Assembly: GCF_016629525.1 (NCBI RefSeq)
Contig: NZ_AP024269.1
Coordinates: 2,790,001-2,854,000 of the forward strand
DNA: 64,000 nt
From: Kaistia sp. 32K
Lineage (GTDB): Bacteria > Pseudomonadota > Alphaproteobacteria > Rhizobiales > Kaistiaceae
Direction: 5' to 3'
This document shows, piece after piece, positions 27,077-61,978 of this stretch. The position numbers and the translations under genes are program-made. Numbering within the stretch: position 1 is the stretch's first letter; each line of letters starts with the position of its first letter. The notes beneath the pieces were generated by a model. That model had not been told where the DNA came from. It worked only from the letters and a program-made list of their open reading frames with translations, and made no database searches.

Positions 27077-27079
27077 GGG

Positions 27080-27997: not shown

Positions 27998-28034
27998 GGA
28001 GGTCTCCTGTCGGATGCGGACGGCTCGGGCGCGG

Positions 28035-28982: not shown

Positions 28983-29057
28983 GCGTCTGCCTCGCTTTCC
29001 AGAAACAAGTCGATCAATCCGGAAAAAAGGGCAGGCCATCCGGCCTGCCCCGCTCGC

Positions 29058-30662: not shown

Positions 30663-30681
30663 TGTTGTGACGCTCCTGTTG

Positions 30682-31464: not shown

Positions 31465-31471
31465 CGCAGCC

Positions 31472-33647: not shown

Positions 33648-34433
33648 TCACACGCTGGCGATCAGGCCGCCATCCACGCGGATGACCGAGCCCGTCAGAT
33701 AGGAGGAGCGGCTGCTCGCCATGAAGGCCACGACATCCGCATATTCCTGCGGATCGCCGTAGCGACCGAGGGGAATCGAACTCGTGCTGGCTGCGGCAAC
33801 TTCCTCGATGGACTTGCCTTCGCGCTCCGCCTTTTGCGCATCGAGGAACGTGATGCGCTGCGTCGCGACGCGGCCTGGCAGGATGACGTTGACCGTCACG
33901 CCATCCTTGCCCACCTCGCCGGCAAGGGTCTTCGACCAACCCAGCAGCGACATCCGCAGCGAGTTGGAAAGGCCCAGATTGGCGATGGGAGCAATGACGC
34001 CCGACGAGGTCGACGTGATGATGCGACCCCACTTGTTTTCCCGCATCTTCGGCAGCACGGCGTCTGTGATCGCGATGACCGACAGGACCATGCTGTCGAA
34101 GTATTTCCGCCAGTTCTCCACGCTTTGGCCGGAAACCAGCGTGGGCGGCGGGCCGCCGGTGATGTTTACAAGCACATCAACCGATCCCAACTTCGTTTCT
34201 ATCTCGGCAAGATTGGGGGCTATTTTCGCGAGATCGGCGAGATCCCATTCGATGGCTGCGGCCGATCCACCCTTGGCGCGAATGTCGGCTGCCGTCTTCT
34301 CGGCGGCATCCAGGTTGATGTCCGCGACGGCAATCCGCGCACCTTCTTCCGCCAGCGTTTTTGCGATCGCGCCGCCAAGGCCGCCACCGGCACCAAGCAC
34401 GAGGGCAGTCTTGCCACCCAATCCCAGATCCAT
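33648..34433 (-). CDS. Divergent SDR family protein (Tyr-x3-Lys replaced)
   Basis: 261 aa with a normal SDR frame: VLGAGGGLGGAIAKTLAEEG cofactor motif, LVNITGGPP and a terminal TGSVIRVDGG. After S144 (TSTSSG) the catalytic position reads NLGLSNSLRMSLLGWSK, so S156 and R160 occupy the Tyr and Lys places. This belongs to a divergent SDR subgroup that keeps the fold but lacks the standard catalytic Tyr. It follows the RraA-like gene by 121 bp on the same strand, presumably one operon. Confidence 0.88.
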   Translation of the reverse strand: MDLGLGGKTALVLGAGGGLGGAIAKTLAEEGARIAVADINLDAAEKTAADIRAKGGSAAAIEWDLADLAKIAPNLAEIETKLGSVDVLVNITGGPPPTLVSGQSVENWRKYFDSMVLSVIAITDAVLPKMRENKWGRIITSTSSGVIAPIANLGLSNSLRMSLLGWSKTLAGEVGKDGVTVNVILPGRVATQRITFLDAQKAEREGKSIEEVAAASTSSIPLGRYGDPQEYADVVAFMASSRSSYLTGSVIRVDGGLIASV

Positions 34434-34554
34434 AACAGACTCCCAATTTTGTGGTTTTTTGCTCGGCATCTGGCCGGGCGCAGGCCGGTGCCCCCTCGTG
34501 CGCACGATCGGTTCGGCCTTGATCGATCGTGCTTTCTGTGGCGAGGGGCGCCCT

Positions 34555-35256
34555 CTAGCGGTTTCGGGTCGCGGAGGCTCTAAACCGCTCGCGCACGGCC
34601 TCATCCGGCGGATAGATGTCTGTCAGCCGAGCACCGCTGAGGACCTGTTCCCGAACCCAGAGATCCAGCCTCTCCTCGTCAGGGCCCGATGCAGCGATCT
34701 GCTCCGCATAGCGAGGCGGCACAACAACGGCGCCGTCACCGTCGGCAACGATGTAATCGCCGGGAAAGACAGCAACACCACCGCACGATATGGGTCTCTG
34801 CCAGTCTACAAAGGTCAGTCCGCTCGTCGAGGGAGATGAAGACACTCCATTGGACCACACCGGGAATCCGATTTCCTCAATGGCATCGCGATCCCGGATC
34901 GCTCCATCGGTCACCAAACCCGAAACACCGATCACCTTCATCCGGGCGCACAGTATATCGCCGAACGAGCCCGCATGTGTAACGCCCCCGGTATCCGCAA
35001 CCGCGATACAGCCCGCAGGCATGTCCTCAACAGCGGCCCGGGTTGAAATTGGCGCGCTCCAGATGCTTTCCGTCGCCAGATCTTCCCGCGCCGGAACGAA
35101 CCGCAGCGTAAAAGCAGCACCAACTTGACGCTCCTGGCCCGGACGCAGCGGCGAGGCGCGCCGTATCCAGACATTCTTGAGCCCCTTCTGGAACAAAAAC
35201 GTAGTAATTGTCGCAGTCGAGACCTGCTTCAGGGCCTGGACAATATTTATGGACAT
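34555..35256 (-). CDS. RraA/HMG aldolase family protein
   Basis: 233 aa. The RraA-like fold includes 4-hydroxy-4-methyl-2-oxoglutarate and oxaloacetate lyases as well as the RNase E regulator RraA. Diagnostic stretch CIAVADTGGVTHAGSFGDILCARMKVIGVSGLVTDGAIRD (in pieces) gives the G-D-x-L-x-A and the G-x-V-x-D-G-x-x-R-D motifs with Arg and Asp of the lyase active site. The RNA-regulator role is unlikely with this context; a pyruvate-releasing aldolase in a catabolic operon is more likely. Confidence 0.85.
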   Translation of the reverse strand: MSINIVQALKQVSTATITTFLFQKGLKNVWIRRASPLRPGQERQVGAAFTLRFVPAREDLATESIWSAPISTRAAVEDMPAGCIAVADTGGVTHAGSFGDILCARMKVIGVSGLVTDGAIRDRDAIEEIGFPVWSNGVSSSPSTSGLTFVDWQRPISCGGVAVFPGDYIVADGDGAVVVPPRYAEQIAASGPDEERLDLWVREQVLSGARLTDIYPPDEAVRERFRASATRNR

Positions 35257-36759: not shown

Positions 36760-36856
36760 TTTCCCGAACCTCGATCATCCGTGCCCGCGAATCCCGGCGG
36801 CGAGAACGCGGCCTCTGCCTAATGGCCTTTCCGCCGGAGGAAGGCGGCGCTCCGTC

Positions 36857-36902
36857 CCACATATCAGAAAAACGGATATGTGGCCTATGCAAATAATATT
36901 AT
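36857..36902. promoter_or_regulatory. Inverted repeat and AT palindrome in LysR divergent promoter
   Basis: Perfect 9-bp inverted repeat CCACATATC (36857-36865) and GATATGTGG (36875-36883) with 9-bp spacer, followed by the palindrome ATAATATTAT (36893-36902). Size and spacing suit a LysR site, and the AT palindrome may overlap a -10 element of the rightward operon. Confidence 0.6.
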
Positions 36903-36976
36903 CGCTGATGACTCCGCGCCGGCTACATTCAGCCCAACAGCTTCCGAACTTCACTTCCATCAGGATTTTGACGCGC

Positions 36977-39139
36977 ATGTGCAGCCGATGCTTGGACAAC
37001 GATATCTCGTTTCTCGGTCCTGACTTTCCGACGTTTTTCCGGAATCCGCTCCATCATGGCCAAAACGGGCTGCTGCTCATCGACACCAGGCAATCTGGCG
37101 AAACGACCTTCGATCGAGTGTTCGCAAGCTCCATAGAGGGCGGGCAGCTGCGCTATTTCGTCGTTGAAGGTTTCCCGGGCGAGCCGTTTGGGCCTTGGCG
37201 GGCCTTGGTCGGCGGCTTGTCGGCCGACGTGGCCGGTCTCGGCGACACCGAACGTCGCGTGCTCGGCAATTTCGTGAACGGCCGGGACTTGAGCCTGCCC
37301 CTGCTCAACGCCCATCATGCGCGCTACCGGACCTTCGACGCCGTCCGCCAGCTCCTTGACCATGCCTCCAAAGCCAGGCCGCTGGCCATCCTGTTTCACC
37401 GGCTGGACCTGAGCGATGAAGCGTCGCTTCAGCTCCTGAGTTTCCTCTCCCCGTTCCTCGCAGACATGCGGGTATTCGTGGCGGCGACGGTCGATGCCGG
37501 AGACGAGGCCTCGCTGGCCCGCATCAAGGGCTCGTTCCCCCGGGCCTCCGTCAACGCAGTCGCCAGCCCCGGCGGGGAGCAGGCTGAAACGAGTCCGTTC
37601 AAGCTGACGCTGCCGACTGTCGAGGCGCTCCCCGTCGCCTCGGATGCCTCGTCCGACACGGCTTCGGCCGGCCAGTGGGCCGATGCCGCGACATGGGCAA
37701 AGAGCATCGGCGCCGCGGAATTCGTGGCCAGGTATCTGAGCAGATGTCTGGAACTCGCCGCGGACGCGGACCAGCAATGGGACATCCTGATCGAGCTGAT
37801 CAAGAGCCACGCGGAAAACAACCGCAGCGAAGACGCCGAACGCTACCTCGCCTTGTGGCTCGAGCACGACAAGACCGGACGATTGGATCCCGGTCCGCTT
37901 TCCGAAATCGCCCTAGCCTTCTGTGATGCAGGGCTGAGCCGGACGCAGCTTTCCCCGCTCCTCGAGCGGCTTGCGGGATCGAGCGACGGGATTGCCTGGG
38001 CAAGGGGCGAGCTGCTCGAAGCTCCTGAGATCGCCAGCATTGCCAGCGGACGCGTGACCCAAGGGCGCTGGCTCGGCGCGAACCAGAAGGCCACGCGCAT
38101 CGCCAGAGAGCTTGGAACGGAGGAGGATTTCGCGCGCACCCTCTATGTCTACGATTGGTGGTCCAAGGCAGATCTGGACGCCATGCTGACGGCATCCGAG
38201 GGTTGGCAAAGCCTTTCCGGACGCTCCAGGGCTCTGTCGGTCGCGGCGGAAACGCTGATGTACCGGTATGGAGGCTTTGCGCGCGCCTGCGAGCTGCTCG
38301 AGGAACAGGCCCGCATGCACAGGCAGACGGGCTGGATCGAGGAGCAGGCCAAGTCGCTGGTGCGCCTCTCCATGGCGCTTCTTGCCAATGGCGAACTGGA
38401 TCGTGCCGACGAGACGCGCGTCAAGGCGCGGGAGACGGTGTGGCGCCTGGGGCCGGAATACCTGATCTACGAGCATGCCGGCACCAAGAGCGGCGGCGAT
38501 CTCTACCCCGAGATTTCAATGGAATCGAACTTCGCATGGTATCGCGAGGGCGATTGGCTCGCGGTCGCGGAACATTGGGCCATGGCCGTCGCCATGCATG
38601 AAGGCGCCGGCAGCCCCGTGCATATCGTGGAAGCCGCGATGACCGCGCAGGCCTATGCGCGGCTCGGTCGCTTCGACGATGCTCGCGTGTATCTAGACGA
38701 GCTGATGGCCATCCTCCCGCTGCTCCAGCCGCGCGACTGGGCGTTCAACGGCGCGGTCGGCCGAGCCACTCACGCCATCTGGGACATGCTCGACGTGAAG
38801 TACGCTTCGGCGTTCCTCGCATTCACCGAGGCTCTGCTCGCCGATGGCGTCGGTGACTGGACCAATACGTCGCTCGAACTCAGCGCCGCCCGGATGGCAG
38901 CCCTCCTGGGGAAACCCGAGCTTGCGACTGAATACTTCTCGAAGGCACGACAGGGCCTCAACGAGGACCAGGCACCGCAACGCGGTATCGTCGACTTCGA
39001 CGAGGCGATTGCCCTCCGTCTGGCCGGAGACACCGGCTCGGAGCGACGGCAGGCGCTGCTCGCATCTGCCATCGACTGTTTCACCGCCAATCGCATGACC
39101 GGATGGCACGAGAGAGCGGAACGAGAGGCAAGGATCTAG
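36977..39139 (+). CDS. Degenerate STAND/AAA-ATPase with TPR-like repeats
   Basis: 720 aa from ATG 36977 (other in-frame starts 36878 and 36908 are possible). The N-terminus lines up with AAA_16/STAND ATPases of LuxR-LAL regulators: FLGPDFPTFFRN, LLLIDTRQSGETT, EPFGPWRALV, RPLAILFHRLDLSDEASL. The P-loop reads D-TRQS-GET with Lys replaced by Glu42 and the first Gly by Asp36; Walker B acids are replaced by His141-Arg142. The rest (about 240-720) is helical with TPR-like units. No HTH at either end. Ends 3 bp before the epimerase gene, so it belongs to the island's first operon, possibly as a signalling scaffold or regulator. Confidence 0.75.
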   Translation: MCSRCLDNDISFLGPDFPTFFRNPLHHGQNGLLLIDTRQSGETTFDRVFASSIEGGQLRYFVVEGFPGEPFGPWRALVGGLSADVAGLGDTERRVLGNFVNGRDLSLPLLNAHHARYRTFDAVRQLLDHASKARPLAILFHRLDLSDEASLQLLSFLSPFLADMRVFVAATVDAGDEASLARIKGSFPRASVNAVASPGGEQAETSPFKLTLPTVEALPVASDASSDTASAGQWADAATWAKSIGAAEFVARYLSRCLELAADADQQWDILIELIKSHAENNRSEDAERYLALWLEHDKTGRLDPGPLSEIALAFCDAGLSRTQLSPLLERLAGSSDGIAWARGELLEAPEIASIASGRVTQGRWLGANQKATRIARELGTEEDFARTLYVYDWWSKADLDAMLTASEGWQSLSGRSRALSVAAETLMYRYGGFARACELLEEQARMHRQTGWIEEQAKSLVRLSMALLANGELDRADETRVKARETVWRLGPEYLIYEHAGTKSGGDLYPEISMESNFAWYREGDWLAVAEHWAMAVAMHEGAGSPVHIVEAAMTAQAYARLGRFDDARVYLDELMAILPLLQPRDWAFNGAVGRATHAIWDMLDVKYASAFLAFTEALLADGVGDWTNTSLELSAARMAALLGKPELATEYFSKARQGLNEDQAPQRGIVDFDEAIALRLAGDTGSERRQALLASAIDCFTANRMTGWHERAEREARI

Positions 39140-39142
39140 TCG

Positions 39143-40201
39143 ATGCCGGCCGCGTCCAACACCATGACAAATACCGTTCTGATCACCGGCGCCGCGGGCT
39201 TCATCGTGAGCAATGTCGCGAAGGAGTATCTCAGCGCGGCACCGGAAGCCCGGGTCATCGTCTTTGACAAATACAAGGGCGACGACCTGGCGCAGGAGCA
39301 CCTCCGGCCGTACGCGGATCGCGTCGAGCATGTCTTTGGCGATATCCGCGACAAGGCGCTGATGCGCGATGTGGTCCAAACCTATCGGCCGCAGGAGGTC
39401 ATCCACGCGGCGGCGATCACGCATCAGGCCCAACTGGAGCGGGACGACCCGAGCGTCTTCATCGACGTCAACATCAACGGGACCGTCTCGCTGCTGGAAG
39501 CCGTCAAAGCCGACAGCGGACTGCGCCGGTTCGTCTACGTCAGCACAGGCGGCGTGTATGGCGAGCCCTCCGAGCGCTCGCCTGCCGGGCCGCAGGGCGA
39601 AGAAGGCCCGTTCGACCCGCCGGAGCTCTATGCCGTCTCCAAATATACTAGCGAGCTCCTCGTCAGACGATACGGAAAGCTGTTCGGCTTCGAGACGCTA
39701 CGCGTCCGCTTCGCCGATGTCTTCGGGCCGATGGAACGGGCGACGGGCGCGCGCACGACCCTTTCGCTACCCTACGGCATGATGCGAGCGGTCCTGGAAG
39801 GAAGAACACTCAAGGTCTCGTCATCAGCGCTGGACGCGAAGATGGACATCATCAGCGCCGAGGAAATCGCCCTCGCCTTCACCAGGCTCCTGCTTCAGCC
39901 CGGCCTTCCCCATGATGTCTACAATATCGCCTCCGGGCAGCACCTCTCGATCCGGGACCTGCTGGAGGCCTTTCGCTCGGTGGAGCCCCGGTTCTCCTAC
40001 GTTGAGACCACGACGGCCGAGGCCGACGTCACGGCCGATCCGTCGCTGACCCGAGGTCGCTACAACGCCTACGACGTCAGCCGCATGCGAGATCTCGGCT
40101 GGCAGCCGCGTCCCCTGAAAGAGCAGCTGGAGCGATATCGGGATTGGGTCGCCCACGATCCGGTCAACCGCTGCCCGGCGACCTCGCCTGCCCGGTCCTG
40201 A
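39143..40201 (+). CDS. NAD-dependent epimerase/dehydratase family protein
   Basis: 352 aa extended SDR. Cofactor motif TGAAGFIVSNVAKEYL: the third Gly of GxxGxxG is Val22. Active-site elements: YVSTGGVYGEP, ELYAVSKYTSELLVRRYG (Y-x3-K) and FADVFGPMERATGARTT. The C-terminal half looks like a sugar-nucleotide or acid-sugar epimerase/dehydrogenase. The shift from Gly to Val at this position may weaken or alter NAD binding. Three bp after the STAND gene. Confidence 0.88.
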   Translation: MPAASNTMTNTVLITGAAGFIVSNVAKEYLSAAPEARVIVFDKYKGDDLAQEHLRPYADRVEHVFGDIRDKALMRDVVQTYRPQEVIHAAAITHQAQLERDDPSVFIDVNINGTVSLLEAVKADSGLRRFVYVSTGGVYGEPSERSPAGPQGEEGPFDPPELYAVSKYTSELLVRRYGKLFGFETLRVRFADVFGPMERATGARTTLSLPYGMMRAVLEGRTLKVSSSALDAKMDIISAEEIALAFTRLLLQPGLPHDVYNIASGQHLSIRDLLEAFRSVEPRFSYVETTTAEADVTADPSLTRGRYNAYDVSRMRDLGWQPRPLKEQLERYRDWVAHDPVNRCPATSPARS

Positions 40202-40255
40202 ACCGGGCCAGCGCCGCCATCCCATTCCGCCCAACGATCCTTGCGAGGAAAGCCA

Positions 40256-41173
40256 GTGTCAGCCCAGCCCTATCCCCGTGACCTCATCGGGTACGCAGAC
40301 CAACCGCCCCATGCCGCCTGGCCGGGCGGAGCGCGAATTGCCGTTCAGTTCGTGCTGAACGTGGAAGAAGGCGGCGAGCACTGCATTCTGCACGGCGACT
40401 CCCATTCGGAATCGCACCTGTCCGAGACGGCCGCCCTGCCGCTGGACGGCAGGCGCAACTTCATCGTCGAGTCCTTCTACGAATATGGTGCTCGGGCCGG
40501 GGTCTGGCGCATCCTGCGCCTGTTCGACAAATATCGCATGCCGTTCACCTGCTTCGCGGTCGGCATGGCCGTCCTGAGAACGCCGGATACCATCCGCGCG
40601 ATGCGCGACGCCGGGCATGAGATCGCCACGCACGGATGGCGCTGGATCAGCTACCAGGACGTGCCCGAGGCCGTGGAGCGCGATCACATCCGTCGGGCGA
40701 TCGCGGCCCATGAGGAGGTGCTTGGCGAGCGTCCGCTCGGGTTCTATGCGGGGCGCCTCAGCCCGAATTCGCGGCGTCTCAGCATCGAGGAAGGCTTTCT
40801 CTATGATGCCGATTCCTATGCTGACGATCTGCCGTACTGGAACCACGACTATGGTCGCCCGCATCTCGTGGTGCCCTACACGTCCGACACGTCGGACATG
40901 AAGTTCCAGACCGCGATCGGGACCTTCAGCGAGGGCGAGCAGTTCTTCACCTATCTGAAGGACAGCTTCGATTGCCTGTATGAAGAGGGGGCGGTCGCGC
41001 CGAAGATGATGTCGGTCGCGCTGCACAGCCGGATCATCGGTCGGCCCGGGCGTATCCGCTCGCTGGAGCGCTTCATGGCCTATATCGCCGAGAAGGAGGG
41101 CGTCTGGGTTCCCCGCCGGATCGATATCGCCCGCCATTGGATCGAATGCCACAAACCCGTCGTGTCGCTCTGA
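40256..41173 (+). CDS. PuuE-type polysaccharide deacetylase family hydrolase, first copy
   Basis: 305 aa from GTG 40256, with GAGGAAA at 40245-40251. Strong resemblance to the PuuE (cyclic amide hydrolase/allantoinase) branch: PRDLIGYADQPPHAAWPGGARIAVQFVLNVEEGGE in pieces, ESFYEYGARAGVWRILRLFD, AGHEIATHGWRWISYQDVPE, YAGRLSPNSRRL and LHSRIIGRPGR. Such enzymes open cyclic amides with a modified deacetylase site. It overlaps the amidohydrolase gene by one base (TGATG), so the two products likely act in one pathway. Confidence 0.9.
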   Translation: MSAQPYPRDLIGYADQPPHAAWPGGARIAVQFVLNVEEGGEHCILHGDSHSESHLSETAALPLDGRRNFIVESFYEYGARAGVWRILRLFDKYRMPFTCFAVGMAVLRTPDTIRAMRDAGHEIATHGWRWISYQDVPEAVERDHIRRAIAAHEEVLGERPLGFYAGRLSPNSRRLSIEEGFLYDADSYADDLPYWNHDYGRPHLVVPYTSDTSDMKFQTAIGTFSEGEQFFTYLKDSFDCLYEEGAVAPKMMSVALHSRIIGRPGRIRSLERFMAYIAEKEGVWVPRRIDIARHWIECHKPVVSL

Positions 41174-42531
41174 TGTTCGATGAAAACACGCCTCGCAAGG
41201 CCTTTCGCAACGGGACGGTGATCACGAGCGCGGGCCCGGTCCGGGCGGACGTGCTGGTCGAGGGCGACAAGATCCTGGACCTTGTCCAGGAGGGCGGGTT
41301 CGAAGGGGCCAAGGAGATCGACTGTCGGGGCAAGCTTCTGCTGCCCGGCCTGGTCGACGCCCATGTTCACTTTCGCGATCCGGGAATGACCGAGAAGGAG
41401 GACTTCGTCAGCGGAAGCACGGCGGCGATCGTCGGTGGCGTGACCACGGCTCTCATCATGCCCACGGACGAACCCTATACCGCGAGCGAGGAGGATTTCG
41501 CCGACAAGGTGGCGCTGGCCAGCCGGCGCCTGCGATGCGACATCGGCCTGCAGGTCGCCGTCCGGCATGATGCACAGTCGCTAAGGCCGATGCGCGACCG
41601 CGGCGCTGTCTCCTTCGAAGTGTTCACCGCGGATGTGCCGGATCCGTTTCTGCATGATGATCTGGCGAAGGTTCAACGCGCCCTGGAGCGGGTTGCGAAG
41701 GTCCATGCCGTCGCCGGCATCAGCCCGGGAGACCAGTCGCTCCTCGACAGCTGGAGCCAGCTCCCGCTGTCGCAGCGGATCGGATTTGAGGATTTCTGCC
41801 GATCGCGCCCCCCGACCGCCGAGGCCATGGGCATCGCCCGGGCCATGACGGCCGCCATCGCCACCGGCTGCGCCATCCACATCCGGCAGGTCAATTCGCG
41901 ACTCGGCGTCGAAGTCATCCGCAGGCTCAGGGATCTCTGCGACGTTTCCGTCGAAACCACGGTTCAATGCCTGCTCTTCGATCAGCACATCTACGAAACC
42001 AAGGGAGCCTTGGCCAAGGGATCGCCGCCGTTCCGAACCGCGGAGGACGTCGCCGCGCTCCGGGCCGCGGCCAAGGACGGCGTGATCGACATCGTCGCCA
42101 CCGACCACGCGCCGCACACGATTTCCGAGAAGGAAGCCGCGTATGAGACGTTCGCTGCCATACCCGGCGGCATGCCGGGGGTCCAGACGCTTCTGCCCGC
42201 CATGCTCAAGTTGGTCGAGGACGGTGTGCTTTCCCTGAGCGACGTGGTGCAGGTCTCGGCGGAACGTCCAGCGAAGCGCTTCGGCCTCGGCGGCCGCAAG
42301 GGCACGGTGGCAAAAGGCCATGACGCCGATATCCTCGTCGTCGACCCGGGGCGTTCGACACGCATTCGGAATGCCGACCAGATCAGCAAGGCCGGGTACA
42401 CCTTGTTCGACGGGATGGAAGTCCAGATGGCGCTCGAGCAGGTGTATCTGCGCGGCCAGCTCGCCGTTCAGAACGGTGAATACGCGCCCGGCTTCAGGGG
42501 GCAGGTTCTCGGGCCCGGCGCTTCAACGTAG
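41173..42531 (+). CDS. Allantoinase/dihydroorotase-like amidohydrolase with altered metal ligands
   Basis: 452 aa cyclic amidohydrolase; family members hydrolyse hydantoin, allantoin or dihydroorotate. Present: H64-x-H66 (DAHVHFRDPG), His178 (KVHAV), the LAKGSPPFR loop and Asp311 (ATDHAPH). Altered: the bridging carbamylated Lys position (GAVSFEVF) is Glu149, and the ligand His of the HVSS motif is Gln239 (HIRQVNS). It may bind one metal, or act on a different amide. Alignment was by eye against AllB-type sequences. One-base overlap with the upstream PuuE-type gene. Confidence 0.85.
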   Translation: MFDENTPRKAFRNGTVITSAGPVRADVLVEGDKILDLVQEGGFEGAKEIDCRGKLLLPGLVDAHVHFRDPGMTEKEDFVSGSTAAIVGGVTTALIMPTDEPYTASEEDFADKVALASRRLRCDIGLQVAVRHDAQSLRPMRDRGAVSFEVFTADVPDPFLHDDLAKVQRALERVAKVHAVAGISPGDQSLLDSWSQLPLSQRIGFEDFCRSRPPTAEAMGIARAMTAAIATGCAIHIRQVNSRLGVEVIRRLRDLCDVSVETTVQCLLFDQHIYETKGALAKGSPPFRTAEDVAALRAAAKDGVIDIVATDHAPHTISEKEAAYETFAAIPGGMPGVQTLLPAMLKLVEDGVLSLSDVVQVSAERPAKRFGLGGRKGTVAKGHDADILVVDPGRSTRIRNADQISKAGYTLFDGMEVQMALEQVYLRGQLAVQNGEYAPGFRGQVLGPGAST

Positions 42532-42590
42532 AACCCGCGCCACGCTTCGGACCCGCAGGCGCATCGGGATGCCTCGGGCAAAATGACGAG

Positions 42591-42621
42591 AACGGCGGTG
42601 AGGCAAAGTCTCGCCGCCGTT
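42591..42621 (+). terminator. Hairpin after amidohydrolase gene
   Basis: AACGGCGGTGAG and CTCGCCGCCGTT (one G-T pair) around a 7-nt loop, 59 bp past the stop. Ends the first operon of the island; no T run. Confidence 0.6.
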
Positions 42622-42898
42622 TCGCATTGGTGGCGAGCCAGGGTCCATACTCGATTGCGAACGCGGCGGCGGGCGCTTGGCGGAGCCCGGCCATTTCGAC
42701 ACCTGCAGCAGGCACTTCAGGCCTCGCGCCGAGCCCCCTTTCCTGGCTCAGGATCCACGCAACGCGCTGTTCGCACTTCCGATCGTGCCCAGGTCCGGAC
42801 CTCTCCATCGTCATTCGCTTTTAGCAAAATATTGTTCGCGTTGGGATCATACGCAACCGAGAGGCTGGCGCATCATCGGACGCGAAAGGGTTAGTTCC
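42622..42898. other. Spacer and probable promoter before the betaine-type importer
   Basis: 277 bp without a supported gene. The AT-rich patch TTTTAGCAAAATATTG (42820-42835) about 65 bp upstream of the permease gene is the likely promoter element. Confidence 0.4.
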
Positions 42899-43756
42899 AT
42901 GTACAAGCTCAACGAACTTTTCGCCGGGTTCACAATCCCGGCAAACGAGTGGATCCAGACCACCATCCTGTGGGCAGTCATTCACCTCCGGCCGGTGTTT
43001 CTGGCCATTAAATGGCCTGTCTCGAACTCTTTGGAACTCCTTGACCAGTTCCTGCGAGGCGTTCCCGCCCTGATAACCGTGGTCGCAATCGGACTGCTGG
43101 CATGGCGGGCATCCGGGACCCGACTGGCCGTCTGGAGCATCGCGGGCTTCCTCCTCATCGGCTTCCTGGGACTATGGGACATGGCCATGACGACGGTCGC
43201 CATGGTGCTTACCTCGGTGATCTTCTGCGTCGTCATCGGCGTCCCGATTGGCATCCTCGCATCGCGCAGCAGCCGGCTGGAAAAGTTCATCCGACCTGTG
43301 CTGGATGCCATGCAGACCACGCCGACCTTCGTCTACCTGGTCCCGATCGTCATGCTTTTCGGCATTGGCAATGTGCCCGCCGTCATCGCCACGATTATCG
43401 TCGCATTGCCCCCGACGATCCGCCTGACGAGCCTGGGCCTCAGGGAAGTCGACGAGGAAATGGTTGAGGCGGGTCGCGCCTTTGGCTGCACAAGCATGCA
43501 GCTTCTCAGGGAAATTCAGGTTCCGCTTGCGATGCCGACGATCGTGACGGGCATCAACCAGTCGCTGATGTTGTCGCTGAGCATGGTCGTCATCGCCGCG
43601 CTGATCGGCGCTGGCGGACTGGGGCTTGCCGTGTATTCGGGCATCAATCGCCTGGATGTCGGGGTCGCCGCAACGGCAGGTCTGGCAATCGTCCTGATCG
43701 CGATCATCACGGATCGCATTGGCCAGGCATTCGTCAATCGTCACTCCAACAACTAA
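42899..43756 (+). CDS. Glycine betaine/proline-type ABC permease (ProW-like)
   Basis: 285 aa. About seven membrane segments. Motifs: ANEWIQTTILWAVIHLRPVFLAIKWP (ProW N-terminal), the IGVPIGILASRS loop, PVLDAMQTTPTFVYLVPIVMLFGIGNVPAVIATIIVALPPTIRLTSLGLR (pieces) and the EAA region EEMVEAGRAFGCTSMQLLREIQVPLAMP. Ligand class: compatible solutes such as betaines, choline or carnitine. Followed after 39 bp by the binding-protein gene. Confidence 0.94.
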   Translation: MYKLNELFAGFTIPANEWIQTTILWAVIHLRPVFLAIKWPVSNSLELLDQFLRGVPALITVVAIGLLAWRASGTRLAVWSIAGFLLIGFLGLWDMAMTTVAMVLTSVIFCVVIGVPIGILASRSSRLEKFIRPVLDAMQTTPTFVYLVPIVMLFGIGNVPAVIATIIVALPPTIRLTSLGLREVDEEMVEAGRAFGCTSMQLLREIQVPLAMPTIVTGINQSLMLSLSMVVIAALIGAGGLGLAVYSGINRLDVGVAATAGLAIVLIAIITDRIGQAFVNRHSNN

Positions 43757-43795
43757 AAAAACAACAATACAACAATATACCAGAGGGTAATTACC

Positions 43796-44782
43796 ATGAA
43801 TACGAACAAGACCAAATCAACAAAACTTGCCATCTTCTGCGCCGCGGCAATGACCGCGCTGATTGGCACAGCCAACGCCGAGGAACCGAACGGTGGGAAA
43901 ACCGTCGTTACCTGCACCTCGACGTCTATCGAGGGCCTCTTCCACCAGATGATCCCGATCCTCGGCCTGCGCGAGCTCGGCTACAAGGTCGACATGCCGA
44001 AGACGCTTTCGGTCCCGCTGGTCCACCAATCCATCGCCATGGGCGACTGCGACTATGCGGTCGACGAATGGGTTCCGCTGCACCAGACGTTCTATGACGC
44101 CGTCAAGGACCTGACCACGCGCCTGGGCCCGACCATTGCGGGCGCCTCGCAGGGCTACCTCATCGACAAGGCGACGGCCGACGCCCACAACATCAAGAGC
44201 CTGGAGCAGTTCAAGGATCCCGCCATCGCGGCACTCTTCGACACGAACGGAAACGGCAAGGCCGACCTCGCCGGCGCGAACCCGGGCTGGGGTTCCGAGA
44301 AGATCATCAACAACGAGATCGCCAAAATCGGCCTCAAGGACACCGTCGACCATAATCAGGGCGAGTACTCGGTCCTGATCTCCGACGTCCTGGCCCGCTT
44401 CAAGAGCGGCAAGCCGGTGTTCTTCTATACCTGGACACCCAATTGGACGACGGCCGAGATGAAGCCGGGCGAGCAGACGGTCTGGCTGACGGTCGATCCC
44501 GCCAATTGCAGTGCAGACGAGCCCTGCGGCACGTCGACAAGTGGCTTTCCGGTCAACGACATCATGATCCTGGCCAACAACGAATTCCTGAAGCGCAATC
44601 CGTCGGCGAATGCCTTCCTTTCCGCGGTGCGCATTCCGCTCGCGGACGTCAATGCCGAGAACCTGCTGATCCATCAGGGCCAGTCGTCCGAAAAGGAAGT
44701 GATCGGCCATGCCGAGAAGTGGGTCGCGGACAACCGGGCGCAGTTCGACGCGTGGCTGAAGCAGGCGCGCGCCACTCAGTAA
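43796..44782 (+). CDS. Betaine-type ABC substrate-binding protein (ProX/OpuAC-like)
   Basis: 328 aa with a signal peptide of about 28 residues ending GTANA before EEPNGG. GAGGG sits 8 nt before ATG 43796. OpuAC family signatures: PILGLRELGYKVDMPKTLSVPLV, GDCDYAVDEWVPLHQTFY, AGANPGWGSEKIINNEI and YTWTPNWTTAEMKPGEQTVWL. The Trp residues in VDEWVPL and PNWT fit the aromatic box that binds quaternary ammonium groups. The mature domain includes Cys pairs (C502-like GDCDY and NCSADEPC) that might form a disulfide. Ligand is probably a betaine-like amine. Confidence 0.93.
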   Translation: MNTNKTKSTKLAIFCAAAMTALIGTANAEEPNGGKTVVTCTSTSIEGLFHQMIPILGLRELGYKVDMPKTLSVPLVHQSIAMGDCDYAVDEWVPLHQTFYDAVKDLTTRLGPTIAGASQGYLIDKATADAHNIKSLEQFKDPAIAALFDTNGNGKADLAGANPGWGSEKIINNEIAKIGLKDTVDHNQGEYSVLISDVLARFKSGKPVFFYTWTPNWTTAEMKPGEQTVWLTVDPANCSADEPCGTSTSGFPVNDIMILANNEFLKRNPSANAFLSAVRIPLADVNAENLLIHQGQSSEKEVIGHAEKWVADNRAQFDAWLKQARATQ

Positions 44783-44890
44783 TTCGCGACAATCCCAAGC
44801 CTGCAGGACTGACGGATATCAGTTCCCCGCTGCGGGGGAGCACATCGCCCCCTGCAGCCCCAGCGCCATATAAACCGAGGCCAGACTAGA

Positions 44891-46096
44891 ATGACTGCAA
44901 AGAGCTTTGTCGGATCGACATTTCCTGCCGTGGACGACATGGGCAAAAGTGCGCAGATCCGACTGACCAGCGACGAAGAGCGGAGCCGGCGGCTTGCTGA
45001 GCTGCGCGCGATGATGACGAGCAACGCGCTGGAAGCCATCGTGATCTCGGGTAAGAGCGATCTGCGCTTCCGCGGCCGCGTCCTCTACACGTCCGACGTC
45101 TTCCAGTTCACGGCCGATTCCTTCGTCGTGATCACGCATAGCGGCGCCCCCATCTTCATCACCACTCCGGTTGTCGGCCTGGGCCAGGCTCGCCGCACCA
45201 ATTGGGCCGAACAGTTTCATGTCAGCGCCCAGCCCGGTCATGTAATCGGCGAGATCCTCGGCAAGGAGAATATTCTTTCGGGCAAGGTGGGCGTGGTGGG
45301 TCTCTCGGATGCGATTTCCGCGATCCACATGAAGGAAATGACCGAGTCCGCGCCGGCCTCGATCGAGTTTGTGGACGCCACGGATGAGTTCGAGCACGTC
45401 CGCCGCGTCAAGAGCCCCGAGGAACTGGCCAACCTCCAGCACATCTCGGCCGTGTTCCGGAAGATCTTCCAGGCCATGGAGGCTGAAATCCGTCCCGGCG
45501 TGCAGGAGTCCGACATTGCCGGCGCCGCGGCGCGGCTGGCCAAGCTGCATGGCTGCCGGGATGTGAAGGTCGCGATGGCGACGACCCCGTTCAACGCCGT
45601 CAGCTACGGATCCAACCGGCGCATCGAGCGGGACGATGCCTTCATGCTCTGGATCGAGTCTCCGGGTCCCTCCGGATACTGGCTTGAACTGCGTCGGTCC
45701 TACTGCTTCGGCGCGCCTTCCGCCGAGATCGTGGAATTCTGGGCGATGCTGGATCAGGTATGGGCCACGGCTCTCGAGGCCATGCGCCCCGGCGTCACCG
45801 GCGCAGAGGTCTTCGCTTCGATTGAACCGCTTCTTTCGGCATATGGATGCCGGCTCAGCCCATCGAACTACAGCCTGCACGGAATCGGCGCCGATGCGAT
45901 CGAAGGGATGTGCTACCCCGGCAACGACAAGCCGTTGCTCGAGGGCGAGGTCGTGTCGTTCCATCCCTCCCTGGTCTTCGACGATGCGAAGAAGGCCGAG
46001 AGGATTAGCTTCCTGGGCATGACGGACAACGTGTTGATCACGCCGGAAGGTGGCCTGCGCCTTACCTACGATTCCGACGCCATTCGCGTGCTCTGA
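44891..46096 (+). CDS. M24 peptidase/creatinase-like protein with altered metal ligands
   Basis: 401 aa. Two-domain pita-bread architecture: an N-terminal creatinase/prolidase domain (about 30-180) and a C-terminal M24-like domain from about 185. At the positions of the five M24 metal ligands I read Glu256, Glu266 (GYWLELRR), His330 (SLHGIG), His358 (VVSFHPS) and Thr378. The usual Asp/Asp/Glu/Glu are therefore missing, as in metal-free creatinase, which opens creatine with His and Glu residues. Hydrolysis of an amidine or N-acyl compound is the best guess. Lies 108 bp behind the binding-protein gene. Confidence 0.8.
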   Translation: MTAKSFVGSTFPAVDDMGKSAQIRLTSDEERSRRLAELRAMMTSNALEAIVISGKSDLRFRGRVLYTSDVFQFTADSFVVITHSGAPIFITTPVVGLGQARRTNWAEQFHVSAQPGHVIGEILGKENILSGKVGVVGLSDAISAIHMKEMTESAPASIEFVDATDEFEHVRRVKSPEELANLQHISAVFRKIFQAMEAEIRPGVQESDIAGAAARLAKLHGCRDVKVAMATTPFNAVSYGSNRRIERDDAFMLWIESPGPSGYWLELRRSYCFGAPSAEIVEFWAMLDQVWATALEAMRPGVTGAEVFASIEPLLSAYGCRLSPSNYSLHGIGADAIEGMCYPGNDKPLLEGEVVSFHPSLVFDDAKKAERISFLGMTDNVLITPEGGLRLTYDSDAIRVL

Positions 46097-46104
46097 GGGA
46101 CGCC

Positions 46105-46908
46105 ATGAACACCTCCCCTTCAAGTCCACTCGCTGCCGGCTTCCTTTCGGGCAAGACGGCCATCGTTACCGGAGCTTCATCGGGCATAGGCAGGGCGATC
46201 GCCGTCGCCTATGCGGCGGCAGGCGCCTCCGTGTTCATCGCGGACATCACGGAAACGCCCAAGGAGGGCGGCGAAACGACCGCCGCGCTGATCACGAAGG
46301 CTGGCGGATACGGGCAATTCGTGGCCACGGACATCGCCAGCGCGGAATCGGTCCGGAACCTGATCGAGACAGCGACCGGCTTGACCGGACGGCTGGATAT
46401 CCTGGTCAACAACGCGGCGACCTATGTCAGCAAGAAGCTGACGGAAACGACGGACGAAGAATGGTCGCACGTCGTTTCGGTGAACCTCACGGGGCTCTTC
46501 AACTGCAGCAAGCAGGCGATCGAACAGATGCTGCGCCAGGATCCCGTGAATGAGGTCCGAGGCCGCATCATCAACATCACGTCCCAGCATGGGATGGTCT
46601 CGGCGCCGAAGGATTTTGCCTACGGCGTGACCAAGGCTGCCGGCGTCTATGCGACCCGTCAGATCGCCGCCGACTACGCGAAAGATCTGATCATCTGCAA
46701 TGCCATTGCACCGGGGAAGATACTGACCGGAAAGCCTGGGGTCGCCGTGGACCCGGATGCCCTGGCCTATTCCAAGATGCGGACCCCGATGCCTCGCTTT
46801 GGCGAGCCGCAGGATATCGCAAACGCCGCGCTCTACCTCGCCAGCGATCTCTCTTCGTACACCACTGGCATCAACCTGATGGTCGACGGTGGATGGATGG
46901 CGGCCTGA
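46105..46908 (+). CDS. SDR family oxidoreductase
   Basis: 267 aa classical SDR. TGASSGIGRAIAVAYAAAG cofactor motif near residues 22-40, NNAAT, catalytic Ser in NITSQHG, Tyr-x3-Lys in YGVTKAAG and a terminal TGINLMVDGGWMAA. All catalytic residues are intact, so it is a genuine NAD(P) oxidoreductase, probably oxidising a hydroxyl group of the pathway intermediate. Starts 8 bp after the M24-like gene and lies 40 bp before the second PuuE-type gene. Confidence 0.93.
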   Translation: MNTSPSSPLAAGFLSGKTAIVTGASSGIGRAIAVAYAAAGASVFIADITETPKEGGETTAALITKAGGYGQFVATDIASAESVRNLIETATGLTGRLDILVNNAATYVSKKLTETTDEEWSHVVSVNLTGLFNCSKQAIEQMLRQDPVNEVRGRIINITSQHGMVSAPKDFAYGVTKAAGVYATRQIAADYAKDLIICNAIAPGKILTGKPGVAVDPDALAYSKMRTPMPRFGEPQDIANAALYLASDLSSYTTGINLMVDGGWMAA

Positions 46909-46948
46909 CCCCCGCCCCTCCCCGTTCATCGACTTGCTAGGACAAAGA

Positions 46949-47860
46949 ATGACCTATCAGCCACATCGGGATTTGATCGGCTACGGCCCGAATCCGCCAA
47001 AGGTTCAATGGCCGAACAACGCGAGGGTCGCGCTCAACTTCGTCATCAACTACGAGGAAGGCGCAGAATACAGCATCGGCGAAGGTGACGGCCGGTCGGA
47101 GACGATCCTCTCCGACGTCTCGCCTTCTGCCCCTATCGCCGGCCGTCGCGACCGGAACATGGAGTCTCTCTACGAATATGGCTCCCGCGTCGGCATCTGG
47201 CGCCTTGCCCGGCTTTTCTCGGAACGCCAGGTCACGCCGACATTCTACGTTGTCGGCCGGGCGCTTGAGCTGAACCCTGAAGTTGGCAAGGTGATCGCTT
47301 CCCTGGGAAGCGACATCGTGTGTCACGGATGGCGTTGGATCGACTACGAAGAGCTGGACGAAAACGAGGAACGCCGTCACATCGCGCAGACGGTTGAGAC
47401 GATCCGGTCCATTACCGGTATCGAACCGACCGGCTGGTACACCGGACGCCCCAGTCTCAATACGAGGCGCCTGGTCGTCGAGCACGGAGGCTTTCTCTTC
47501 GACAGCGACGACTACAATGACGACCTGCCCTATTCCGTGACGGTCTCGGGCAACCGGCATCTCGTTGTTCCGCACAGCTTCGATTGCAATGACAGCCGCT
47601 TTTCGCGGGGCTCGGGCATCGAAACGGGCGACCAGCTCTATGCCTATCTGCGCGATGCCATGGAATGGCTGGTTGCCGAGGGCGAGGCGTTGCCGCGGAT
47701 GATGACCGTGTCCCTGCACTGCAGGCTGAGCTCGCGGCCCGGCCGCATCGGCGCCATAGCCCGGTTTCTGGATCTCGCCCGGTCCAATCCCCATGTCTGG
47801 ATATGCCGGCGCACCGACCTGGCAAGGCACTGGTTGAGCCAAGTGGGAGAAGGTCAATGA
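46949..47860 (+). CDS. PuuE-type polysaccharide deacetylase family hydrolase, second copy
   Basis: 303 aa, the second member of the same family as the gene at 40256. Motifs: RDLIGYGPNPPKVQWPNNARVALNFVINYEEGAE in pieces, MESLYEYGSRVGIWRLARLF, SDIVCHGWRWIDYEELDENEERRH, GWYTGRPSLNTRRLV and LHCRLSSRPGR. It is closer to the canonical PuuE pattern than the first copy (CHGWRW and YTGR retained). It overlaps the ATPase gene by 4 bp (ATGA). Cyclic amide hydrolysis is inferred from family. Confidence 0.9.
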   Translation: MTYQPHRDLIGYGPNPPKVQWPNNARVALNFVINYEEGAEYSIGEGDGRSETILSDVSPSAPIAGRRDRNMESLYEYGSRVGIWRLARLFSERQVTPTFYVVGRALELNPEVGKVIASLGSDIVCHGWRWIDYEELDENEERRHIAQTVETIRSITGIEPTGWYTGRPSLNTRRLVVEHGGFLFDSDDYNDDLPYSVTVSGNRHLVVPHSFDCNDSRFSRGSGIETGDQLYAYLRDAMEWLVAEGEALPRMMTVSLHCRLSSRPGRIGAIARFLDLARSNPHVWICRRTDLARHWLSQVGEGQ

Positions 47861-49020
47861 ATGCGATCGCTTCCGTAGCAGACCGCAACAGCCAGCGCGA
47901 AGTCCTGCTTGCCATAGAGCATCTATGCAAAATCTACGGTGGCGACGAAGCCCGCGCCGCCAAGCTTGCCCTGGAGGGCAAGGGACGCGCGGAGATCCTG
48001 GACGAGTGCGAGTCCTTCGTCGCGGTCGCCGACGCGACGCTGAATGTGCATCGCGGCGAGATCTTCGTGATCATGGGGCTTTCCGGTTCCGGAAAGTCCA
48101 CCTTGCTTCGCTGCATCAATCGGCTGATCCGTCCCACCTCCGGAACGGTTCGATTTGGGGCGGAGGACTTGACCTCCGTCTCGGAGGAGAGGCTGCGAGA
48201 GCTCAGGTTGTCCAAGATCTCCATGGTCTTTCAGCACTTCGCCCTGCTGCCGCACAAATCGGTGATCGACAACGTCTGCTTTGGCCTGAAATTGCGCGGG
48301 GTCGAGAAGTCCGAGCGCTATGCTATCGCCAAGGAATTGCTGGGCCAGGTCGGCCTGGCCGGCTGGGAGAGCCGCTTTCCGCACAATCTGAGCGGCGGCA
48401 TGAAGCAGCGCGTCGGATTGGCAAGAAGCCTCGCCGTAAACCCGGATATCCTGCTGATGGACGAGGCATTCAGCGCGCTCGATCCCGTCATTCGCCGGGA
48501 AATGCAGATCGAATTGCTGCGCCTGCAGAAGGAGCTGAACAAGACCATCCTGTTCATCACGCATGACATTCAGGAAGCGCTGCTTCTTGGCGACCGTATC
48601 GCGATGATGAAGGATGGGCGGGTCGTCCAATGCGGGAGCCCGTCCGACCTGATCCTCACGCCTGCTGACGACTTCGTCGCCGAATTTACTCGTGACGCCG
48701 ATCGCGCACGAATGCTGATGGCTAGGGACATCATGCTGCCGATTGAACGGTTCAACCAATCGGAAGATCAGAGCAGCCTCTTCAGTATCGACATGGACCC
48801 GACAGGATCGATTTCGATCCTTGAACGAGACTGCTCAACGCGCGAGACGCGCAAACTCTCCGTGGACCGGTCCAGGTTTGCGCGCGATACCGATCGTCTG
48901 GGACAATTGCTTCCGCTCGCGGACAGCCCCCTTCCGATTCTTGTCACCGACGCGAGCGGCCGCGTTGTGGGTGCGACGACGAGGGAAAAGCTTCTCGCGA
49001 CGATCAGCATCAAGCATTGA
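47857..49020 (+). CDS. Glycine betaine/proline-type ABC ATPase (ProV-like)
   Basis: 387 aa. Walker A GLSGSGKST at residues 74-82, Q-loop VFQHFALLPHKSVIDN, signature LSGGMKQRVGLARSL, Walker B ILLMDEAFSALDPVIRREMQ (Ala in place of the usual Pro after Asp-Glu, as in ProV) and His in THDIQEAL. The C-terminus carries a weak CBS-like strand (LPILVTDASGRVVGATTREKL). It lies about 4 kb downstream of the permease and binding-protein genes with the catabolic genes in between, an unusual layout. Overlaps the upstream gene by 4 bp. Confidence 0.93.
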   Translation: MNAIASVADRNSQREVLLAIEHLCKIYGGDEARAAKLALEGKGRAEILDECESFVAVADATLNVHRGEIFVIMGLSGSGKSTLLRCINRLIRPTSGTVRFGAEDLTSVSEERLRELRLSKISMVFQHFALLPHKSVIDNVCFGLKLRGVEKSERYAIAKELLGQVGLAGWESRFPHNLSGGMKQRVGLARSLAVNPDILLMDEAFSALDPVIRREMQIELLRLQKELNKTILFITHDIQEALLLGDRIAMMKDGRVVQCGSPSDLILTPADDFVAEFTRDADRARMLMARDIMLPIERFNQSEDQSSLFSIDMDPTGSISILERDCSTRETRKLSVDRSRFARDTDRLGQLLPLADSPLPILVTDASGRVVGATTREKLLATISIKH

Positions 49021-49064
49021 GGGCCGCCGGTTGGGCAAGAGGGTGAAGTGTTGGAGACCATGTG

Positions 49065-50078
49065 ATGCCGCAAGCTAAGACCGGTGCAACTCCTCCGCTG
49101 CTTCCCGCGTTCGGCGAGAAAGTGGAGCCGCAGCGGTTCGGATTTCTCCTGGTTCCAAACTTCTCGCTGATTCCGTTTGCCGCGGCGACCGAAGCCCTGC
49201 GCGTTGCAAACTGGTTGTCCGGCCTGACCCTGTACGAATGGTACTTTCTCACGGAGGACGGCCGCAGCGTTCCTGCGGCCAACGGCCTCGAGGTCGCCCC
49301 CCATGCCAAGTACGATGAGGCGCCGCCGCTCAACAACATCATCGTCTTCGCGGGCGGAAGGGTCCCCCCCACTCTGCGCGAAGAGCGCGTTCTCTCGTGG
49401 ATGAGACGACAGGCGCGAGCGGGCGTGCGGATTGGCGCTGCCGGCCTCGGCAGCTTCATCCTGGCACGGGCGGGACTTCTCAATGACTATCGCTGCACCG
49501 TCCACTGGAAGCTCCTGCCGAAGTTTCGGGACGAGTTTCCGCATTTGAACGCGACCGACGAAATCTACGAGATCGATCGGGATCGCCATACATCCTCAGG
49601 CGGCACCGGCACGCTGGACGTCATGCTCGCCCTGATTGCCGGCGACCATGGCGAAACCCTCGCTTCGCATGTCGCCGAAGAGTTCATGCATGACAGGATA
49701 CGTCCCAGCTCACACTCGCAGCGCATGCCATTGCGCTTTCGCTTGAACATAACCAACCGCAAGGTTCTCAACGCCGTCGGACTGATGGAGAAAAGCATCG
49801 AGAACCCGCTGAGCTGCGCCAGCATCGCGGAATCTCAGGGTGTCTCCGTCCGACAGCTCGAGAAGCTGTTCCGCGCTCACCTCGACACGACGCCCAAGGA
49901 ATATCAGCGTCAGATACGGCTCAAGTTCGCCCGCCGCTTGCTCATGCAAACGACGCTCTCCGTGCTGGAAGTCGGAATGGCGACGGGATTCTCGTGTCAG
50001 TCGCATTTTTCCAAGGCATACCGGGCCGAATTTGGCGTACAGCCTCGGCATGACCGTGGCAAGGACAGCCTTCTCTAA
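49065..50078 (+). CDS. GlxA/GbdR-type AraC family activator
   Basis: 337 aa. Residues about 22-190 form a DJ-1/PfpI-like glutamine amidotransferase-type domain (RFGFLLVPNFSLIPFAAATEALRVANWL, GLGSFILARAGLL). The C-terminal 100 residues carry the AraC double HTH (CASIAESQGVSVRQLEKLFRAHLDTTPKEYQ and VGMATGFSCQSHFSKAYRAEFGVQP, in pieces). Regulators of this architecture include GbdR, which activates glycine betaine and carnitine catabolism. It follows the ATPase gene by 44 bp and closes the island, suggesting it activates it. ATG 49065 is preferred to GTG 49062 (GGAGA at 7 nt). Confidence 0.93.
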   Translation: MPQAKTGATPPLLPAFGEKVEPQRFGFLLVPNFSLIPFAAATEALRVANWLSGLTLYEWYFLTEDGRSVPAANGLEVAPHAKYDEAPPLNNIIVFAGGRVPPTLREERVLSWMRRQARAGVRIGAAGLGSFILARAGLLNDYRCTVHWKLLPKFRDEFPHLNATDEIYEIDRDRHTSSGGTGTLDVMLALIAGDHGETLASHVAEEFMHDRIRPSSHSQRMPLRFRLNITNRKVLNAVGLMEKSIENPLSCASIAESQGVSVRQLEKLFRAHLDTTPKEYQRQIRLKFARRLLMQTTLSVLEVGMATGFSCQSHFSKAYRAEFGVQPRHDRGKDSLL

Positions 50079-51888: not shown

Positions 51889-51964
51889 AGTTCCGCGCAA
51901 CCGACTAGATTGGGGCGCAATGTCGGCACAGGGCGATAGTCTGTCAATGGATTCACAGCTCGCA

Positions 51965-52080
51965 TTGTAGAATGTTATGCTCAAGAATGGACAGAATATA
52001 GAATAAATCTAAATGTTACGCGAATTAGCTTATGCTTGGAATATTTATATTCAATTATACCTGACATCAAAATCTGGTTC
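51965..52080. promoter_or_regulatory. AT-rich promoter island with GAATAT palindrome
   Basis: Distinctly AT-rich stretch in a 406-bp gap. It contains the palindrome GAATATTTATATTC (52039-52052), GAATATAGAATA near 51994-52005 and several TATAAT-like boxes. It probably carries promoters for the divergent TPR gene and the downstream ABC operon. Nothing else is recognised in 51889-52294. Confidence 0.45.
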
Positions 52081-53893: not shown

Positions 53894-53896
53894 ACC

Positions 53897-54919: not shown

Positions 54920-54920
54920 G

Positions 54921-61761: not shown

Positions 61762-61978
61762 GATCAACTCCTCAAGATCAAGGAAGTTCGACAAGGCTCG
61801 AATAGCAATCGACCGGCGCAGCGCCCGCTGGGACCATACTTCGTCAAACTTGGGGGCACCCAATGACAAGGTCGCGAGGAGCGATTGATGGATAGCCCGT
61901 CCTCCGCGTCTCGACCCGCGGCAGGATCTGCCGCACCGCGAAGGCACAGGATGCAGCTTTTCCAGAAAGCGACCGGAG

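Follow-up and report, generated by a model that had tools for sequence, protein, structure and literature searches.

The locus considered here is an operon of ten genes in a 64,000-nucleotide stretch of the Kaistia sp. 32K genome (contig NZ_AP024269.1; the whole stretch is called the window, and positions refer to it). It raises the question of what compound a bacterium would take up with a ProXWV importer of glycine betaine type and then degrade with enzymes that open cyclic amides. All ten genes were found on the + strand at 39143–50078, in the order epimerase-fold short-chain dehydrogenase/reductase (SDR), PuuE1, amidohydrolase, ProW, ProX, M24 protein, classical SDR, PuuE2, ProV and GlxA/GbdR-type regulator. 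Their families agree with Pfam and NCBIfam profile matches, which bears out the gene set listed by the first-pass annotation, made from the sequence alone. The explanation favoured here, tentatively and at a little under even chances, is that the operon was acquired and degrades a quaternary-ammonium compound in which a cyclic ureide, imide or similar ring is present or from which one arises. Of its parts, the role in cyclic amide or ureide catabolism is highly probable, and a substrate with a methylated or quaternary nitrogen comes close to, but short of, an even bet. No published pathway or cluster with this gene set was found in the open-licence literature, and the first-pass annotation had likewise known of none.

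Importer and enzymes of the operon

ProWX and ProV enclose the genes for the M24 protein, the classical SDR and PuuE2, and for this reason the importer looks like a part of the operon and not a mere neighbour. Likelier start codons were picked by reading for the amidohydrolase (41173), ProW (42899, ATG), PuuE2 (46949) and ProV (47857, ATG); given these starts, PuuE1 and the amidohydrolase overlap by one base (TGATG, 41171–41175) and PuuE2 and ProV by four (ATGA, 47857–47860), which suggests translational coupling of both pairs. Internal promoters would have room in the gaps ahead of ProW (367 bases) and the M24 gene (108). ProX passes the equivalog cut-off of NF008334 (359 against 215 bits) and matches E. 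coli ProX (1r9l) at 278 bits, with its W92, W165 and W213 aligned to W65, W140 and W188 of that protein, which we take to form the betaine cage. ProV passes the subfamily cut-off of TIGR01186 (330.0 against 326.6 bits) and so is not very distant, as it had at first been called. The window thus resembles ProU (ProVWX) in these respects and differs from it in that its genes are split around catabolic enzymes and its ProW remains under the NF008196 cut-off (337.9 against 439 bits). Models of the choline importer ChoXWV failed (TIGR03414, 38.5 against 379.05 bits; TIGR03415, 353.3 against 483.75; TIGR03416, 271.7 against 363), as did the GbdR model NF052371 for the regulator (330 against 480 bits), which is 38–42% identical to the regulators heading related clusters.

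Both PuuE proteins align along nearly the whole of the allantoinase model TIGR03212, PuuE1 above its cut-off (449.8 against 424.6 bits) and PuuE2 below it (392.1 bits), and PuuE1 matches the solved PuuE structure 3cl6 at 402 bits. In a tree of 46 sequences, PuuE1 lies among canonical PuuE proteins, one of them from a urate cluster, and nearest to a Vibrio PuuE (support 0.946), whereas PuuE2 joins PuuE2 of Mesorhizobium (support 1.000); neither is part of a urate operon. PuuE alone is not diagnostic, because PuuE-type genes occur in many other importer loci that lack the operon's epimerase. Adjacent PuuE-type pairs near ATP-binding cassette (ABC) importer ATPases were also seen in three other genomes and make up two further clades of the tree.

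The amidohydrolase has the fold of hydantoinase, AllB and dihydroorotase, and scores below the cut-offs of all the NCBIfam models listed for it, including those of ErtD (NF058538 and NF058539; 195.7 and 202.8 bits against 600 and 650). Compared with enzymes such as L-hydantoinase and AllB (1gkr, 3hm7), what we take to be the bridging carboxylated lysine and the two beta-side histidines of the binuclear site are replaced, by E161 and Q251 in all 28 family sequences and by S196 in 27 (threonine in the other); four HydA controls keep K, H and H there. The test for a binuclear site therefore failed, and with three metal ligands replaced, classical hydantoinase catalysis is doubtful. The protein is, on its sequence, a separate family within the hydantoinase/allantoinase fold, with an altered metal site; the earlier description as hydantoinase-like holds for the fold and is in doubt for the catalysis.

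The M24 protein, aligned to PepE, keeps only the histidine of the five metal ligands (as we presume their positions to be), plus a glutamate for one aspartate, and by its sequence has lost most of the metallopeptidase ligands. It had been called creatinase-like, which is right as to the superfamily. The best creatinase chain reached only E 0.053 in a whole-chain search, and the guanidino part proposed for the substrate, which had rested on this protein, is not borne out; a creatinine pathway was rejected, there being no support past the M24 superfamily. Models of the ectoine hydrolase DoeA also failed (NF038259 and TIGR02993; 31.6 and 28.4 bits against 575 and 613). Among four distant plasmid relatives, two adjoin EhuABCD ectoine importers, one adjoins an aminotransferase gene and an oxoprolinase-family gene, and the fourth is in a record without annotation; one of four relatives aligned, the second M24 protein of its locus, also lacks the usual ligands. 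A scan of the class with the M24 protein found it in one of 385 genomes, its own, and no further ProXWV variant. A single-sequence structure model was set aside (predicted local distance difference test score, pLDDT, 36.8).

The epimerase-fold SDR is probably, to judge from its sequence, an NAD-dependent dehydrogenase acting before ring opening. In sequences read by eye, the third glycine of its TGxxGxxG motif is valine in the window and methionine in the Mesorhizobium counterparts. A further SDR, here SDRa, lies 5 kb from the operon beside an RraA-like protein; a motif scan found no YxxxK in it, though it is 78–85% identical to the SDR3 of related clusters. Ensifer adhaerens also has an SDRa–RraA pair (61% and 55%), there with the other cluster genes absent within 31 kb, and SDRa as an exclusive marker of the clusters was weakened by relatives at 61–72% in other Ensifer and Sinorhizobium loci.

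The operon was apparently acquired, since its region has a lower G+C content than its flanks and the sampled genomes of the genus lack its genes. Mean G+C at third codon positions (GC3) is 0.751 for the 23 gene calls at 32.8–59.9 kb and 0.846 for 30 calls outside, a figure that omits two likely antisense calls (17969, 24060) and becomes 0.837 with all 32; overall G+C is 61.8% there, compared with 65.6% over the first 32 kb. The M24 protein (E 1e-40) and amidohydrolase (E 1e-110) were found in none of six same-genus genomes sampled, the PuuE2 orthologue (E 1e-115) in none of five, and there is no tRNA gene in the window.

Related clusters and the proposed betaine link

The ring-hydrolase part of the operon recurs elsewhere. 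In the plasmid collection, 16 records match the amidohydrolase at 47–51% over 93–97% of its length, and the next at about 33% (best 30 of 1042). The same 16 carry the orthologues of the classical SDR (60–80%) and of SDRa (78–85%), each among at least 5000 matching records, and together with four Klebsiella plasmids that have a PuuE gene they are the best 20 of 1487 records for the epimerase. Since orthologues of the amidohydrolase, SDR and epimerase share these 16 records, their grouping is more than chance; the records do not count as independent, most coming from Rhizobium and many from a single species complex. Five were read, four with annotation and one without. The four annotated clusters have in common a GlxA regulator, a Dpp importer, a major facilitator superfamily (MFS) transporter, HydA, an SDR, the epimerase, PuuE, a thiamine-diphosphate (TPP) enzyme (974.5 bits to NF004807, cut-off 607), the amidohydrolase and one or two further SDRs; by tblastn, epimerase, PuuE, TPP enzyme, amidohydrolase, SDR2 and SDR3 are present in all five. 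Identities between the window and three of the clusters are 49–50% for the amidohydrolase, 61–64% for the classical SDR, 34% for the epimerase, 39–42% for GlxA and 79–83% for SDRa.

A scan of 84,980 species genomes with the amidohydrolase gave, among the 80 matches listed, at least 18 loci at 47–55%, one more at 41%, and 61 that did not exceed 38%. The 18 are from Mesorhizobium (nine), Rhizobium (three), Ancylobacter (two), a 'Rhizobiales bacterium', Phyllobacterium, Caballeronia and a Rhizobiaceae metagenome-assembled genome. For most core loci the stretch read spanned 10 kb on either side, and within about 10 kb of the match the core PuuE is present in all 18, the epimerase in 16, SDR2 in 15, and the TPP enzyme and SDR3 in six each. 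Broader samples contain the family in four of 297 genomes of the order and two of 398 of the phylum (own included in both, with no further ProXWV variant in the latter). In one of the genomes with the family, PuuE is missing from the core cluster, though epimerase, TPP enzyme, amidohydrolase and SDR2 are there.

More distant modules repeat the theme. A second, simpler type consists of GntR, an AllA-type ureidoglycolate lyase, PuuE, an amino-acid-type importer, an epimerase (27–31%) and an SDR. It is present in Neorhizobium, Bosea, Paroceanicella, Thioclava and a Comamonadaceae, and in Rhizobium WYJ-E13 as far as the epimerase, at which the stretch read there stops; the lyase gene adjoins PuuE in six loci (two by Pfam, four by annotation). 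In Methylobacterium nodulans and Klebsiella oxytoca the SDR–epimerase pair accompanies HydA and Asp/Glu/hydantoin-racemase-family genes. Eight of the 24 listed SDR records are non-core, and all six fetched have the pair with PuuE or HydA, accompanied by importers of other kinds. Klebsiella pneumoniae pKPN-80a has an epimerase (35%), PuuE (53% to PuuE1), an energy-coupling factor (ECF) importer, RidA, HydA and M20 hydrolases; its locus also holds a cytosine-permease gene. In another genome, a triad of epimerase, PuuE and SDR lies beside an ABC importer, with a second PuuE 5 kb away. The recurring unit, judged by sequence, is a ring hydrolase with two SDR families and a variable importer (Dpp, MFS, amino-acid type, ECF or other ABC types). 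Its spread over Rhizobium, Paracoccus, Mesorhizobium, Bosea, Thioclava, Paroceanicella, a Comamonadaceae, Methylobacterium and Klebsiella plasmids supports the earlier proposal of a catabolic island for a ring compound of amide, ureide or imide character. Membership of the family was taken as an epimerase, a PuuE or hydantoinase, the amidohydrolase and SDR2 in one locus, and the window has all four; it is a composite member. Counterparts of the epimerase, amidohydrolase, SDR2, GlxA and SDR3 are shared with the pRL12/Mesorhizobium core cluster, for which the literature gave no name, and to which the window adds ProXWV, the M24 protein, PuuE1 and PuuE2, while the TPP enzyme, HydA, MFS transporter and core-clade PuuE of the Rhizobium form are absent from it.

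The link to betaines comes from islands outside the window. Orthologues of PuuE2 (69–71%) occur in nine of the 18 core genomes, which are all nine Mesorhizobium, and the other nine reach at most 49%; among 283 genomes of the order, only Kaistia sp. 32K and one other (G105) have it, both core carriers. In Mesorhizobium, PuuE2 is on the same contig as the core PuuE, 23–29 kb apart. All nine islands contain genes for a HisC-like aminotransferase, PuuE2, an FAD-GcvT protein, a Dpp-type binding protein and LysR, as well as PrpD-like, DapA-like, 2-hydroxyacid-dehydrogenase-like and MttB-superfamily genes; five also have sarcosine-oxidase-like genes. Between this group of genes and the core sit those for a hydantoinase, an M20 hydrolase and a nitrilase that is carbamoylase-like. 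The methyltransferase's closest solved relatives are 4yyc (340 bits) and 2qne and 9yce (314 each), 9yce being a named glycine betaine methyltransferase, whereas the trimethylamine methyltransferase 7xcl reaches only 154 bits; by these relatives it would be of MtgB (glycine-betaine) type. The label 'dimethylglycine-dehydrogenase type' used below for the FAD-GcvT protein is our own and expresses likeness. The Ancylobacter core has beside it an FAD-GcvT protein sharing 80% identity with the G105 one, together with M20 (65%) and LysR (66%) relatives; the 20 kb read there showed no MttB gene. The window has no relative of the extra island genes at 130 bits or more. The betaine link of PuuE2 is one of guilt by association.

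Weighing the explanations

Several observations count against a betaine substrate. None of the other 26 core loci (5 from plasmids, 18 from species genomes and 3 more) and none of 17 neighbouring stretches has a ProX or an M24 match (E 1e-8), so the check proposed by the first-pass annotation, that importer and enzyme genes should be found together in homologous loci, turned out negative. The betaine importer could be incidental, and as its pairing is not conserved, it cannot define the substrate alone. The pocket of E. coli ProX fits compact betaines, and a ring may not fit. The annotated Rhizobium, Neorhizobium and Paracoccus clusters have no betaine-annotated gene in the stretches read. In the islands, PuuE2 is convergent with the FAD-GcvT gene and hence not on one transcript with it. 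Rhizobia commonly have methyltransferase and sarcosine-oxidase genes; the MttB-type protein of G105 gave 312.7 bits to the trimethylamine methyltransferase model (cut-off 525), and its FAD-GcvT protein stayed below the cut-offs of soxA (200.7 bits) and GcvT (137.0 bits). The PuuE proteins of the core clusters group in a separate clade (1.000) to which neither window PuuE belongs, and so PuuE1, of canonical type, seems to take the place of the core enzyme. The betaine substrate of the first-pass annotation gained independent support, for a methylated-amine or betaine component, from Mesorhizobium and lost the argument from a conserved importer pairing. Importers of the ProU family can take up a betaine with a ring, as EgtU, one of them, binds ergothioneine (PMC9732360).

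Under the betaine reading, ProXWV would import the compound and the GlxA/GbdR-type activator would respond to it or to a product. The two SDRs of the operon would oxidise a carbinol of the ring or side chain, as when a hydroxy-lactam becomes a cyclic imide, after which PuuE1 and PuuE2 would hydrolyse the activated ring, or two rings in succession. The hydantoinase-fold enzyme, left with one metal position (alpha), might perform a related, non-classical C–N cleavage and the M24 protein a metal-independent hydrolysis. Ammonia or urea would carry off the nitrogen, and the carbon would end up in a small hydroxy or oxo acid, which SDRa and the RraA-like protein may finish. In Mesorhizobium, methyl groups would be removed by the MtgB-type methyltransferase and the FAD-GcvT protein of dimethylglycine-dehydrogenase type. 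The order of oxidation, then hydrolysis, is proposed because the nearest worked chemistry is that of HxnW and HxnM of Aspergillus nidulans, where the cyclic imide that an SDR makes from a hydroxy-lactam is then opened by a PuuE-related imidase (PMC9304392); that nicotinate pathway has another substrate and host, and the likeness is a chemical analogy and not a family assignment.

A bolder version, speculative and rather unlikely, is an undescribed pathway by which root-associated bacteria couple the N-demethylation of a betaine to the opening of a cyclic-ureide ring and live on a common but unrecognised betaine-ureide, with the hydantoinase-fold enzyme as a new single-metal subtype of cyclic amidohydrolase. 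If the betaine reading is right, a nitrogen-rich betaine used by bacteria in soil and root zones would be missing from the usual lists, and a function would be given to the altered-metal-site family and to the epimerase family that accompanies PuuE genes. Relatives of the gene set exist in many root bacteria, and the betaine reading can be tested in ordinary laboratory strains, thanks to the Rhizobium johnstonii plasmid cluster and the island conserved in Mesorhizobium.

The best-placed alternative, though on balance unlikely, is an operon scavenging cyclic ureides (hydantoins, pyrimidines or purine fragments) whose native importer was replaced by a ProXWV for a zwitterion that is no betaine and has no quaternary nitrogen. 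ProU-type importers for other ligands do exist, such as HutXWV for histidine, and the varying importers of the family and the AllA-type and hydantoin-racemase-family genes of related modules fit well; the three tryptophans and equivalog score of ProX, and the demethylation-type genes of the Mesorhizobium islands, do not. It is improbable that an ordinary osmoprotectant importer was placed by chance inside an unrelated amide-hydrolase operon: the closest plasmid relatives listed for ProX (40–42%) include several annotated as glycine betaine ProX, and a gap lies ahead of ProW, yet the importer genes enclose three enzyme genes and ProV overlaps PuuE2. A duplicated allantoin operon is slightly less probable again. 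PuuE1 scores as an allantoinase and groups with canonical enzymes; however, a higher-scoring PuuE (531.6 bits) is encoded at 2135801 in the same genome, no uricase, AllC or allantoicase is among the ten genes (Pfam, NCBIfam), and the SDRs, M24 protein and ProXWV would be left unexplained, so that a plain purine operon was rejected. Breakdown of a histidine betaine (hercynine or ergothioneine) via hydantoin acids is the least probable, for although EgtU (PMC9732360) and the HisC-like aminotransferase, hydantoinase and carbamoylase-like genes of the Mesorhizobium island point that way, the ErtD models fail by far, which led to rejection of an ergothioneine pathway, and the epimerase has no place in it.

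Positions and neighbouring genes

Features of the operon and its likely accessory genes, in window positions
Feature	Position	Strand	Basis
Extended SDR, epimerase fold (PF01370)	39143..40201	+	Pfam 137 bits
PuuE1, canonical-type PuuE cyclic amide hydrolase	40241..41173	+	TIGR03212 449.8 bits
Hydantoinase/allantoinase-fold amidohydrolase	41173..42531	+	longest open frame begins 41137
ProW-type permease	42899..43756	+	NF008196 337.9 bits; longest open frame begins 42677
ProX-type binding protein	43796..44782	+	NF008334 359 bits
M24 'pita-bread' protein	44891..46096	+	PF00557 69 bits
Classical SDR dehydrogenase, SDR2 orthologue	46105..46908	+	61–64% to SDR2 of plasmid clusters
PuuE2, PuuE-type hydrolase	46949..47860	+	TIGR03212 392.1 bits; longest open frame begins 46889
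ProV-type ATPase	47857..49020	+	TIGR01186 330.0 bits; longest open frame begins 47665
GlxA/GbdR-type AraC activator	49062..50078	+	Pfam: DJ-1/PfpI-like domain and helix-turn-helix
SDRa, likely accessory partner, SDR3 orthologue	33648..34604	-	78–85% to SDR3 of plasmid clusters
RraA-like aldolase-family protein adjoining SDRa, possible accessory	34555..35256	-	PF03737 108 bits

Large proteins are encoded on both sides of the operon, at 36734–39139 (a weak AAA_16 match, below cut-off) and 50131–51984 (TPR matches), and another, presumably resembling a sulfatase, at 60043–61947, just beyond the low-GC3 stretch. Two Dpp-type importers flank the region (25694–32491 and 52295–57447), one of them including an MFS gene, and their genes are 24–42% identical to the Dpp genes of related clusters.

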